Below, piece by piece: positions 35,041 to 40,707 of a DNA stretch of 64,000 nucleotides. The stretch covers positions 262,165-326,164 of the forward strand of contig JAOPKE010000004.1 in the NCBI GenBank assembly GCA_025517465.1, read 5' to 3'. Made by a program: the position numbers and the translations under genes. Every line of letters begins with the position of its first letter. Position 1 is the first letter of the stretch. The notes under the pieces are model-generated. The model ran no database searches, was not told the DNA's origin, and saw only the letters and a list, made by a program, of their open reading frames with translations. The stretch is from Halobacteria archaeon HArc-gm2 (lineage in GTDB: Archaea; Halobacteriota; Halobacteria; Halobacteriales; Haloarculaceae).

Positions 35041-35173
35041 CGGGTACCCAGAAAGATCTCGGCGCGCTCTCAGGAGTCGGAACCGCGACCGCCAACAACC
35101 AGAAAGCCTTCGGCGCGCTCCCTGAAACTAACACTGCGACCGCTAACAACCAGAAAGCCCTCGGCTCGCTCCG

Positions 35174-35283
35174 GCACCGAAAGACTCGCTTCGCTCGTCT
35201 TTCGAGCTCTCGTTCGCTCCGCTCACGAGCACCGAAAGACTCGCTTCGCTCGTCTTTCGAGCTCTCGTTCGCTCCGCTCACGA
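35174..35283. repeat. 55-nt perfect tandem repeat inside L1
   Basis: Copies at 35174-35228 and 35229-35283 are identical. Each contains the hairpin cgaaagac...gtctttcg and a second one around cgttcgctccg. It is probably a recent duplication of a hairpin module. Confidence 0.9.
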
Positions 35284-35380: not shown

Positions 35381-35893
35381 TGCTTGCTGCGCCCGGATTC
35401 CCGGAGCCCGCCTCGCCCTTTCATTCCTCCAGGCACAGCCACGCTCGCGCCACGGAGGCGCTCGCGATTGAGTCCGCCAAACCTCCCCGAATTCGCGGCG
35501 TCCGCCGCGAATCACGCTTCCTTCAGCAACCGCACGGCGGTCGGCCGGGAGCGCGTTTCATCGCGCGACCAGGGGAAGGGCAGGGCTGCTGTGCAGTCCC
35601 TGGAGGACTGAAAGGGCGAGGTGCGGTCGGGGAAGCTGGGACCCCCAAGCACCGGAGCGGAGTGAGGAGCGCAGGGTGGTCCCCGCGACCCGAGCGCGCC
35701 GAGGGCTTTCGAGGTGTTGTTGTTGGCTTCAGTGCCGACTGCAGAGAGCGCGCCGAGGGCTTTCTGGTTGTTGTTGGATTCAGTACCAACTCCAGAGAGC
35801 GTGCCGAGGACGTTCCACAAGTTGCCGTCTCCAGTCTCCGTCGCCAGTTCGCCCACCACCAAATTCGAGGGTCTCGCGGGCAGCGTCGGGGGC

Positions 35894-37319: not shown

Positions 37320-37555
37320 CTCGCGGTACTCAGTCCTCGCCGACCGCTTCTTCCACGATCTCGATTTCCTCGTCGGTCAGGCCATAGAGTTCGTAGACGA
37401 TCTCGTCGATGAGGTCGTCGGTCCGCTGGATCTTCGCTTCCAGTTCCTCGGCGCGCTCCATCGTCTCGACGTAGCTCACCAGCCCCTCGCGCACGTCGTC
37501 GACGGCGGGGAGGGTGAGTTTCCGGAGGCGGTCCACCAGCGAGTTGGTCTTCGTG
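37320..37555. repeat. Left direct repeat of the toxin-antitoxin island
   Basis: About 230 bases, starting near the shared ctcgcggtact and ending near gttggtct. It matches 39160-39395 at roughly nine bases in ten, same orientation. Both copies encode the same methylase C-terminus. Outside these limits the two loci differ. Confidence 0.85.
37330..37536 (-). pseudogene. C-terminal remnant of an Eco57I-like DNA methylase, copy 1
   Basis: A frame of 68 codons from a GTG reads [18 protein letters not shown] and ends [22 protein letters not shown]. That ending is the characteristic C-terminus of large haloarchaeal Eco57I-type restriction-modification methylases of over 1000 residues. The rest of the gene is missing: an in-frame TAA lies just upstream, where similarity to copy 2 stops. 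It could still be expressed as a small helical protein, but decay is the simpler reading. Confidence 0.65.
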
Positions 37556-37591: not shown

Positions 37592-37873
37592 CTAGTCGTC
37601 TCCTGGCTTGTAGGCCCCACCGCGTCGTTCGATAGTGTAGACGTCGAGTACCCGGTTGGCGTGGTCGCACTCGGCACCGAGTCTGAACTGTCCGATGCGG
37701 AGTTTCGAGTGCGGAACGCCGGTCAACGGTTCGAGTTAGTCGCCCGGTTCCCGCCACTGGTCAGTGACGATTTCGTCAAGCTTGTCGGTGATCCTGTCCC
37801 GTGCGTGGTCGTCGAGATCGTCGTAGGTCCGCTTGGCCGGTGCCCGAAATTGCCACGTCCAGCTACCCGTCAT
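37592..37873 (-). pseudogene. RelE/ParE-family toxin interrupted by an in-frame stop
   Basis: The frame opens ATG at 37873 (MTGSWTWQFRAPAKRTYDDL) and codes for 93 residues to a TAG at 37592-37594. Codon 46 is TAA (37736-37738), right after WREPGD. Beyond it the same frame continues with LEPLTGVPHSKLRIGQ, RVLDVYTIERRGGAYK, the conserved C-terminal half of RelE toxins. Homologues have Tyr at this position, so one TAC to TAA change explains it. The truncated 45-residue product lacks most catalytic residues. The start overlaps the antitoxin gene by 11 bases. Confidence 0.8.
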
Positions 37874-38138
37874 CGCCGAGGATCTCTTCGCGCGAGAACG
37901 ACTCGCTCTCACCAGTTCGGCGGGCGTGTTCGACGGCCGCTATCTCTTTCCAGCTCTCCCGGGTGAGATCGGGATGGCGCACGGCGTCGCGGAGCGCCTC
38001 GCGGATGAACTCGCTCCGGCTGTTGTACCCCAGCTCCCGCCACGTGGCGTCGATGTCCTCCAGAAACGTCTCCGTCAATCGCATGTTGATGTTCGTCGTT
38101 TCCGGGTCTTCAGGCCGGCCCGTATTTGCATCCGACAT
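37863..38138 (-). CDS. Ribbon-helix-helix antitoxin of a RelE-type pair
   Basis: A 91-residue protein. NINMRLTETFLEDIDATWRE and NSRSEFIREALRDAVRH form a MetJ/Arc/CopG-like DNA-binding fold (residues about 17-55), and the acidic tail (ESESFSREEILGDDG) would wrap the toxin. The start at 38138 trims an unrelated extension. It precedes and overlaps the RelE remnant. With the toxin broken it may be an orphan antitoxin kept for regulation or as protection against related toxins. It diverges from VapB by 128 bases. Confidence 0.85.
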   Translation of the reverse strand: MSDANTGRPEDPETTNINMRLTETFLEDIDATWRELGYNSRSEFIREALRDAVRHPDLTRESWKEIAAVEHARRTGESESFSREEILGDDG

Positions 38139-38266
38139 ACGTCTGCATTGCACCGGCTGTGCAAAGAACGTTTTGCCGCGAGTGGCATCGGTCAGTCCGT
38201 GCCGTTCGCGTTGATTTCGCATCTGCGGACCACATCGTTAAGTGAGCGTGCTACCATAGTATCACT

Positions 38267-38602
38267 ATGAAGTACGCCAACGTCAGCGTCAAGTTCCCGC
38301 GCGAACTCGACGACGAACTCGAACGATTCCTCGCCGAGACGGGAATCTATACGAACAAGAGCGAGTTCATCAAGGAGGCCGTTCGAAGTCACCTCCAACA
38401 ACTGAACGACCAGACTGGTATCGCCGCCCTCCGGCTCGAGCAGATGTTGGCGCAGGCCGAACAGCGTTCCGAGAGCGACGAGGAACTTCACGCCCGGCTC
38501 GAGGACCTGCGTGCAGAAGTCGACGCCGACCCCGAAGCGGTCGCCGCAGCCGTCGAGGCTGCACGCGAAGAAACTGCGGAACGGACGTTCGAACAGTCGT
38601 GA
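38267..38602 (+). CDS. VapB-type ribbon-helix-helix antitoxin
   Basis: A 111-residue protein. YANVSVKFPRELDDELERFLAETG and NKSEFIKEAVRSHLQQL give the N-terminal RHH DNA-binding domain, followed by a long charged helical tail (EQRSESDEELHARLEDLRAEV) that would bind the toxin. The stop overlaps the VapC GTG by 4 bases. It would repress its own promoter with VapC. It lies within the island bounded by methylase-tail repeats. Confidence 0.85.
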   Translation: MKYANVSVKFPRELDDELERFLAETGIYTNKSEFIKEAVRSHLQQLNDQTGIAALRLEQMLAQAEQRSESDEELHARLEDLRAEVDADPEAVAAAVEAAREETAERTFEQS

Positions 38603-39066
38603 AGATTCTCGATACCAATCTCTGGGTATTCGGGACGCTCGGTACCCACGGACGAGCGACCGAGTTACTCGACGAAATCGAACGTGGCAACGTCACCTCG
38701 GCGATCAACGCGCACATGGTTCAGGAGGCGCTCGACGCCTTCGACCGCACGCCGGGGCTTTCGACCACCCAGCGAGACGCTTTCAAAACGGAATTCCTGG
38801 CACGTCTCGTCAGAATGACGGGCCTCATCGAAGCCCCATCCAGTCGAGACGTCTCTGCGACGGTAATCGACGACCGACGGTCACAGACTCACGTTCGATT
38901 GCTCGCGCAAATTCTCGATATGCAACCGAAGGACGTGCCGATTCTGACGCTGGCCTTCGAGCACGCCGACCGGAAGCCCCGAATTCTCACAAACGACGAA
39001 TCGTTCGCCAGCCTGTCCCCGGGAGCGCACAACCTTCCGGCGTTGACGCTCGAACACGTCGCGTAA
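38599..39066 (+). CDS. VapC-type PIN-domain toxin
   Basis: A 155-residue PIN protein starting at a GTG. Asp5 in KILDTNLWVF is the first metal ligand, NAHMVQEALDAF supplies the Glu, and RILTNDESFASL the C-terminal Asp. These are the VapC RNase residues. It probably cuts tRNA or rRNA when VapB is degraded. The reading frame is intact, unlike the RelE toxin of the same island. Confidence 0.87.
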   Translation: MKILDTNLWVFGTLGTHGRATELLDEIERGNVTSAINAHMVQEALDAFDRTPGLSTTQRDAFKTEFLARLVRMTGLIEAPSSRDVSATVIDDRRSQTHVRLLAQILDMQPKDVPILTLAFEHADRKPRILTNDESFASLSPGAHNLPALTLEHVA

Positions 39067-39159: not shown

Positions 39160-39395
39160 TCGCGGTACTATTCGTTCCCGACCGCCTCCTCCACGATCTC
39201 GATCTCTTCGTCGGTCAGGCCATATAGCTCGTAGACGATTTCGTCGATGAGGTCGTCGGTCCGCTGGAACTTTGCCTCCAGTTCCTCGGCGCGCTCCATC
39301 GTCTCGACGTAGCTCGCCAGCCCCTCGCGCACGTCGTCCACCGCGGGGAGGGTGAGCTTCCGGAGGCGGTCCACCAGCGAGTTGGTCTTGGTCGC
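39160..39395. repeat. Right direct repeat of the toxin-antitoxin island
   Basis: The partner of 37320-37555, same orientation, with substitutions mostly at third codon positions. The copies are about 1.84 kb apart, and recombination between them would delete both toxin-antitoxin modules. Confidence 0.85.
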
Positions 39396-39437
39396 CGTCT
39401 CGCGGAAGCCCGCGAACCCGCTGGCCTCGTCGACCAC
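39168..39437 (-). pseudogene. C-terminal remnant of an Eco57I-like DNA methylase, copy 2
   Basis: An 89-codon frame (GTG start) reads [27 protein letters not shown] and the same [10 protein letters not shown] end as copy 1. It keeps about 20 residues more at the 5' side than copy 1. A TAA in frame just upstream and a Rieske gene beyond it show that the rest of the methylase is gone. Third-position differences between copies imply some time since duplication, or independent origin from two methylases. Confidence 0.65.
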
Positions 39438-39897: not shown

Positions 39898-39981
39898 GTG
39901 TTCGGTATCTCGGTAGTAGCGAGCGAGACTGATGGGGCACTGGACGATTTGCCGGAGCAGCTGTGACCACGACGTCTAATA

Positions 39982-40590
39982 CTTCGAAAGCCCTCGGCGC
40001 GCTCTCTGGAATTGGCACTGGAACCAACAACAACACCTCGAAAGCCCTCGGCGCGCTCTCATGAGTCGGGATTGAGACCGCCAACAACACCCAGAAAGCC
40101 CTCGGCGCGCTCGACTCGTGCGAACCCGCTGCGCGCGCTCGTTCCTCGCGTGCTTACGGGTTCGGACTTCGTCGACCACGCCTCGCCCTTTCAGTCCTCC
40201 AGGCCCAGCACCGCTCGCGCGATGAAACGCGCTCACGATTGAGTCCGCCAACCCTCCCCGATCGCTCGCCGTCCGGCGAGCGATACGCTTCCTGACCGCA
40301 CAGCACGGCCGGGAGCGGCGTTTATGCCGCGACCAGGGGAAGGGCAGGGCTGCGGTGTGTACCTGGAGGACTGAAAGGGCGAGGTGCGGTCCGGGAACCC
40401 GGGCGCCGCTAGCACCGGAGCGTAGCGAGGAGCGCAGCAAGCCCCGGGACTGGAGCGAGCCGAGGGCTTTCTGGTTGTTAGCGGTCGCAGTGTTAGTTTC
40501 AGGGAGCGCGCCGAGGGCTTTCTGGGTGTTGGCGGTCGCGATCCCGACTCCTGAGAGCGCGCCGAGGGCTTTCTGGGCGGTGGTGGTCTT
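39982..40590. repeat. Composite inverted R1 element L2, about 0.61 kb, in an 810-base gene-free gap
   Basis: It has the same plan as L1. Reverse tails begin at 39982, 40035 and 40089, and the reverse head ends near 40195. The centre spans 40201-40360. The forward head GACTGAAAGG is at 40369, with 51-nt tandem tails beginning at 40459, 40510 and 40561. The central hairpin is ATCGCTCGCC-GTCC-GGCGAGCGAT (40261-40284), same loop as in L1 with a different stem. The remaining 115 bases to the RCK gene show nothing. Confidence 0.85.
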
Positions 40591-40707
40591 GTTTCTCCCA
40601 GCATCAATCAGACCGAGAACCGACCATTCACTCGAAACACACACTCATCAACCTGCAATCCCCCACGAACGACCCACACAATAGCAAGTCTCGCCACGAA
40701 CGCCCCA

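Follow-up and report, generated by a model that had tools for sequence, protein, structure and literature searches.

Background

Chromosomal toxin-antitoxin (TA) systems are not always maintained intact, and their decay by nonsense mutation and deletion has been documented in Escherichia coli (PMC7167474, PMC2654758). In the case of ccdO157, a chromosomal type II TA system of E. coli, many natural isolates carry an inactive toxin according to Mine et al. (2009), as cited in PMC2654758, PMC7167474, and PMC7280312, and the proportion of defective toxins is quoted in PMC7280312 as reaching about 30%. A still higher level was reported for the xre-res modules of Pseudomonas, with defective toxin genes in up to about 50% of homologues (PMC7280312).

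The locus described here lies in a 64,000-nucleotide stretch of a haloarchaeal contig, which was analyzed as a whole and is referred to below as the window. The family to which this locus belongs is an archaeal instance of the same toxin-first decay of type II TA systems.

Organization of the Locus and the Interrupted Toxin Gene

By its sequence features, the locus belongs to the type II TA modules, in a family with a RelE-fold toxin and an RHH antitoxin (Table 1). The antitoxin gene, in which a DNA-binding domain is present, is located directly upstream of the toxin gene, and the same gene order is found in all 37 loci compared. An earlier sequence-only reading had described the toxin frame as open over 93 codons except for a TAA at codon 46, free of frameshifts, and accompanied by an intact antitoxin. 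Minus-strand translation from 37873 to 37592 and alignments with orthologues confirmed the description of the toxin, as the frame has one internal stop and its C-terminus follows in frame; the antitoxin was found intact at the level of an open frame from ATG to stop. When X is placed at codon 46, the toxin frame aligns over codons 2-93 with the intact orthologue from genome G073 (83% identity, E 9.8e-53), and it also aligns with the likewise intact orthologue from the MAG QS_8_69_26, which shows that it is a genuine gene, not an ORF that arose by chance. QS_8_69_26 is the nearest relative of the window, and its open toxin frame has Tyr at codon 46, a residue that is invariant in the open orthologues of alignment A2 (14/14). 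A frameshift or assembly artefact near the stop was also considered and ruled out, the frame being colinear on either side.

Table 1. Features of the window and toxin lesions of the orthologous loci.
Feature	Position	Strand	Remarks
RelE-fold toxin pseudogene	37592..37873	minus	93-codon frame, ATG at 37873, end stop at 37592, nonsense codon 46; model of an orthologue matches RelE structures
In-frame TAA, codon 46 (TTA on the plus strand)	37736..37738	minus	Tyr position in all intact orthologues aligned
RHH/CopG-type antitoxin, 91 aa, open	37863..38138	minus	RHH_1 PF01402, E 2e-5; 11-nt overlap between its end and the toxin start
Operator-like element TGCAATGCAGACGT	38139..38152	minus	directly 5' of the antitoxin ATG; visual alignment of 37 upstream regions, putative function
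Probable TATA-like promoter element AACGTTCTTT	38163..38172	minus	conserved AACRCTYTT-like block, putative function
Divergent neighbour in a second TA-like pair, RHH antitoxin-like gene	38267..38602	plus	E 2e-4 to RHH_8 (under the cut-off)
PIN-like gene of the second pair, partner of the preceding gene, open	38599..39066	plus	E 0.0044 to PF13470 (under the cut-off); 60-66% identity to plasmid homologues beside RHH genes
Eco57I-like restriction-modification gene, 3'-end fragment, left direct-repeat copy	37330..37554	minus	full-length homologue in L063
Same Eco57I-like gene, 3'-end fragment, right copy	39168..39437	minus	93% identical over 215 nt
Window toxin			TAA46
G004 toxin			TGA40
Haloarcula JP-L23 plasmid toxin			TAG40
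G072 toxin			TGA7
G113 toxin			TAG7
G340 toxin			TGA5
G254 toxin			TGA10
Halorientalis salina toxin			TAG74
G347 toxin			TAG8 plus frameshift
Toxins of G055, Haloglomus halophilum, QH_2_65_14, G278			frameshifted (QH_2_65_14 with deletion)
G218 toxin			internal deletion
Toxins of G040 and the second H. marina copy			shortened
Toxins of G315, G503, G499			not recognisable

No RelE/ParE profile matched the window frame (Pfam, NCBIfam) or the intact orthologue L065 (Pfam), and the H. marina orthologue is named a RelE/ParE toxin by PGAP. An AlphaFold2 model was built for L065 (pLDDT 82, pTM 0.73). According to Foldseek, its best match is Thermus RelE (2khe, E 5.7e-6, TM 0.75), followed by RelE1 and RelE2 of M. 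tuberculosis (RelBE1/RelBE2), Pyrococcus RelE (1wmi), and E. coli RelE (4fxe). As modelled, the intact orthologue has the RelE fold and is placed by fold in the RelE/ParE toxin superfamily. A PDB sequence search also returned 7rdr, a designed repeat protein aligned to a helical stretch, which was set aside.

In the L065 model, the strands at residues 56-60, 63-70, and 75-83 all come after residue 46, and the first 45 residues, which are what remains translatable in the window, comprise the first strand and two helices. Because the three core strands after residue 45 are missing, this product would not be expected to form a working toxin, and toxin activity is probably lost. The window copy lacks a complete toxin frame, owing to the TAA at codon 46.

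Toxin Lesions in Orthologous Loci

The search covered 392 genomes (the order and several families), GTDB contigs, and plasmids, and 37 distinct antitoxin loci from halophilic archaea, which make up the close clade of this locus, were collected via the antitoxin. The toxin frame is open in 18 of these loci and broken or missing in the other 19. One in-frame stop interrupts eight toxins, and a ninth (G347) combines a stop with a frameshift. The nonsense codons occupy positions 5, 7, 7, 8, 10, 40, 40, 46, and 74, include TAA, TAG, and TGA, and each differs from the others in position or in codon; the lesion of the window is thus independent of the rest. G247 is counted among the 18 with an open frame but has ACG at the usual ATG start, and judging from this codon its toxin may also be dead.

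The broken copies are scattered over the tree of loci, and G055 and Haloglomus halophilum are the only sister pair with a similar frameshift, from which about 18 independent losses are deduced. Toxin loss had been treated in the sequence-only reading as a single event, and this view has to be given up, the window being one case among those losses.

No internal stop was detected in the 37 adjacent antitoxins. Of the 29 toxins with remains that extend over the whole gene, 9 contained nonsense codons, compared with 0 of 37 antitoxins (Fisher exact p 2.7e-4); the asymmetry is overstated to some extent, as frameshifted antitoxins are missed by an antitoxin-based search. Broken antitoxins (frameshifted or truncated) were observed in G437 and Haloarcula litorea, both found via the toxin and the former only in this way; in both, the toxin has lost its start codon as well, and invariant positions are changed. 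No locus with an intact toxin beside a broken antitoxin was seen, which is the pattern expected of a TA pair. On the plasmid of Haloarcula litorea (L086 3782-4270), the antitoxin C-terminus and the toxin form one in-frame ORF, which is annotated as a hypothetical protein.

Nonsense decay is general among RelE-like subfamilies and is stronger in the 37-locus clade. In the other RelE-like subfamilies of the same genomes, nonsense codons were found in about 17 of 140 among the matches listed (Fisher p 0.02 versus the 37-locus clade).

Upstream Region of the Antitoxin

Comparison of the 37 upstream regions revealed two conserved blocks, both of which are retained where the toxin is dead. A TATA-like block is common to all loci, and a block of the form TGTAAYACrnnnGT, situated between the TATA-like block and the antitoxin ATG, stands directly before this ATG in nearly all of them. 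It appears that the antitoxin-toxin transcript is leaderless, with the TATA-like block as its probable promoter element, and that the second block is a putative operator of the RHH antitoxin, through which the antitoxin might regulate its own expression.

The operator-like site of the window departs from the consensus symmetrically, with a change in each half-site (GTA-A-YAC to GCA-A-TGC), and the antitoxin operon could therefore be decaying as well. In QS_8_69_26, the operator-like site is changed in one half only. In G072 (L033), where TGA interrupts the toxin at codon 7, the antitoxin has ATA in place of ATG as its start; this may mark the next stage of decay.

Age of the Losses and Selection

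Separate dN/dS values for terminal branches were estimated with a purpose-written codon model. The codons past the stop in the eight nonsense lineages gave a dN/dS of 0.071 (about 0.042-0.118 at 2 log units), and the toxin on intact terminal branches gave 0.063, with a likelihood ratio test p of 0.62 between the two; setting the post-stop value to 1 was 28 log units worse. The toxin losses are recent, since the post-stop codons still bear the mark of strong past purifying selection, and from a rough mixture argument we infer that each loss takes up at most several per cent of its branch. The same holds for the window branch itself, where the toxin dN/dS was 0.042 and a value of 1 was 14 log units worse, in agreement with the very recent loss that had been proposed from the letters of the window. 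In frameshifted or deleted toxin remnants, the dN/dS was 0.059.

With regard to the antitoxin, dN/dS was 0.073 on toxin-dead branches versus 0.066 (p 0.62), and 0.084 for the loci with a frameshifted, deleted, or absent toxin (p 0.28). Given that the toxin remnants are equally conserved, the low values of the antitoxin are no proof that it is retained for its own sake.

Explanations of the Interrupted Toxin

We are confident that the lesion in the window is a true recent loss of the toxin by one nonsense mutation. The alternative raised in the sequence-only reading, readthrough controlling the toxin level, supposes that the stop is decoded at a low level and the toxin dose limited in this way. 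The frame beyond the stop is indeed intact and its dN/dS resembles that of a working gene, but frameshifted and deleted members have values just as low, so that recency accounts for the signal. Moreover, the nine orthologues with stops use three stop codons at seven codon positions (5, 7, 8, 10, 40, 46, and 74), and the toxin frame is open in QS_8_69_26 and in G073, the sister of G072. No two relatives have a stop that agrees in both position and codon, and readthrough is exceedingly improbable. Much the same can be said of a function for the 45-residue truncated toxin itself, for example as a co-repressor with the antitoxin: the N-terminal part is still translatable in the window, but the stops of the relatives range from codon 5 to codon 74 and would yield no common truncated product, which leaves this idea hardly credible. 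A sequencing or assembly error at 37736-37738 has to be considered because the base call rests on a single assembly of the species. Random errors, however, would strike toxin and antitoxin alike, whereas nonsense codons occur in eight other orthologues and in none of the 37 adjacent antitoxins, and the nonsense rate of the family (about a third) is far above plausible base error rates; such an error is very unlikely.

On the other hand, it is a serious possibility, though short of an even chance, that the antitoxin is actively kept after the toxin has been lost, either as an anti-addiction protein that counters related toxins on their arrival or in a regulatory role. The absence of a raised antitoxin dN/dS on toxin-dead branches, the persistence of the promoter and operator-like blocks in such loci, and the existence of plasmid-borne relatives are consistent with it, as is the Haloglomus pair, whose frameshift may be old and common to both members and whose antitoxins differ by 2 nonsynonymous and 8 synonymous changes. 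However, the two frameshifts of this pair are not identical in sequence and could have arisen separately, the toxin remnants also have low dN/dS, most losses are too recent for antitoxin decay to have followed, and the antitoxin of G072 has no ATG.

Under the preferred explanation of toxin-first decay, a recent single nonsense mutation disabled the toxin gene in the window genome, and the antitoxin gene, its probable promoter, and the operator-like site stayed in place. The reason presumably lies in the pair itself, in that the toxin could be lost at once and without harm, and the antitoxin could be lost safely only after the toxin; the remaining antitoxin may still be at work. The event in the window is one among numerous independent losses of this toxin-first kind within the family.

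Genomic Surroundings and Mobility

The RelE pair and the second RHH/PIN-like pair (38267-39066) are arranged back to back, and both are enclosed by direct-repeat copies of the 3' end of the Eco57I-like restriction-modification (RM) gene, at 37340-37554 and 39178-39392. The full gene, as present in G001, encodes 1321 aa (PF07669, E 3e-33), and in QS_8_69_26 the intact RelE pair directly follows an Eco57I-like RM gene. In G006, RM 3'-end copies at the same chromosomal place, adjoining the PcrB/GGGP synthase gene, enclose a DUF433 gene together with its broken partner. The occupation of one place by different TA pairs in G006 and in the window suggests that the RM 3' end is a recurrent insertion or landing site for TA pairs.

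RM 3'-end fragments flanking TA pairs were also noticed at L062 4420-5640 and L065 2238-3282. At L062 5016-5560 (G006), the DUF433 gene is open and encodes a putative antitoxin, and it is followed by a frameshifted DUF5615-like partner, a putative toxin whose label was given by reading and without a profile match. In addition, repeat arrays of approximately 51-54 bp occur in the window at 35047-35180, 35678-35866, 39956-40126, and 40445-40624; they are inverted and flank a stretch in which the TA block is found along with the PcrB gene and a Rieske-type gene (labelled by reading).

The clade tree mixes families, as Halorubrum aquaticum falls inside the Halovenus and Halorhabdus copies (support 96-97), and some copies of the TA pair are plasmid-borne; both observations fit horizontal spread among haloarchaea. 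No relatives were found in viral contigs with the query used, and a viral origin of the TA pair was rejected on this ground. Defence-system profiles (PADLOC) gave no meaningful match.

Significance and Comparison with Known Systems

It may be asked whether the toxin is lost so fast that the long-term survival of the module needs horizontal re-supply of working copies. The basis of this idea is that 8 in-frame nonsense losses occurred among 26 full-frame lineages, all within the last few per cent of the branches; at such a rate, nearly all lineages would be toxin-less by now unless dead copies were replaced or purged. We put it forward tentatively and consider it rather unlikely. If true, the TA module would pass through an invade-decay-reinvade cycle similar to that of homing endonucleases.

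The single stop in the window is ordinary, and the 37 species-level loci are more useful, as they provide a clean case from the archaea, with about half of the toxins freshly dead and the adjacent antitoxins without internal stops. With these loci, one could ask whether chromosomal TA modules are selfish elements maintained by transfer or carry selected host functions, and whether leftover antitoxins protect against related incoming toxins. In the latter respect, a likeness may be drawn with the anti-addiction module ccdEch (PMC2654758), in that the leftover haloarchaeal antitoxin could by analogy neutralise related plasmid toxins, although the ccdEch module is wholly intact.

The haloarchaeal locus resembles the RelE/RelB family (Thermus 2khe, Pyrococcus 1wmi, E. 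coli 4fxe) in the RelE fold modelled for the intact orthologue and in the small RHH-type antitoxin located upstream and overlapping the toxin. In contrast to that family, the haloarchaeal toxin is too distant in sequence for the Pfam and NCBIfam RelE models, and the window copy is truncated.

The decay of the toxin in this family is ordinary in kind and unusually frequent (~50%). As in ccdO157, the toxin of a chromosomal type II TA system has been inactivated repeatedly in nature, by lesions that are frequent and independent, and the antitoxin frames have been kept. However, ccdO157 concerns CcdB in one bacterial species, whereas a RelE toxin is affected here and the losses extend across species and genera of halophilic archaea. 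The level of defective toxins (19/37) is the same as that of the xre-res modules, which are composed of RES and Xre proteins and occur in bacteria, unlike the RelE family of the haloarchaea.
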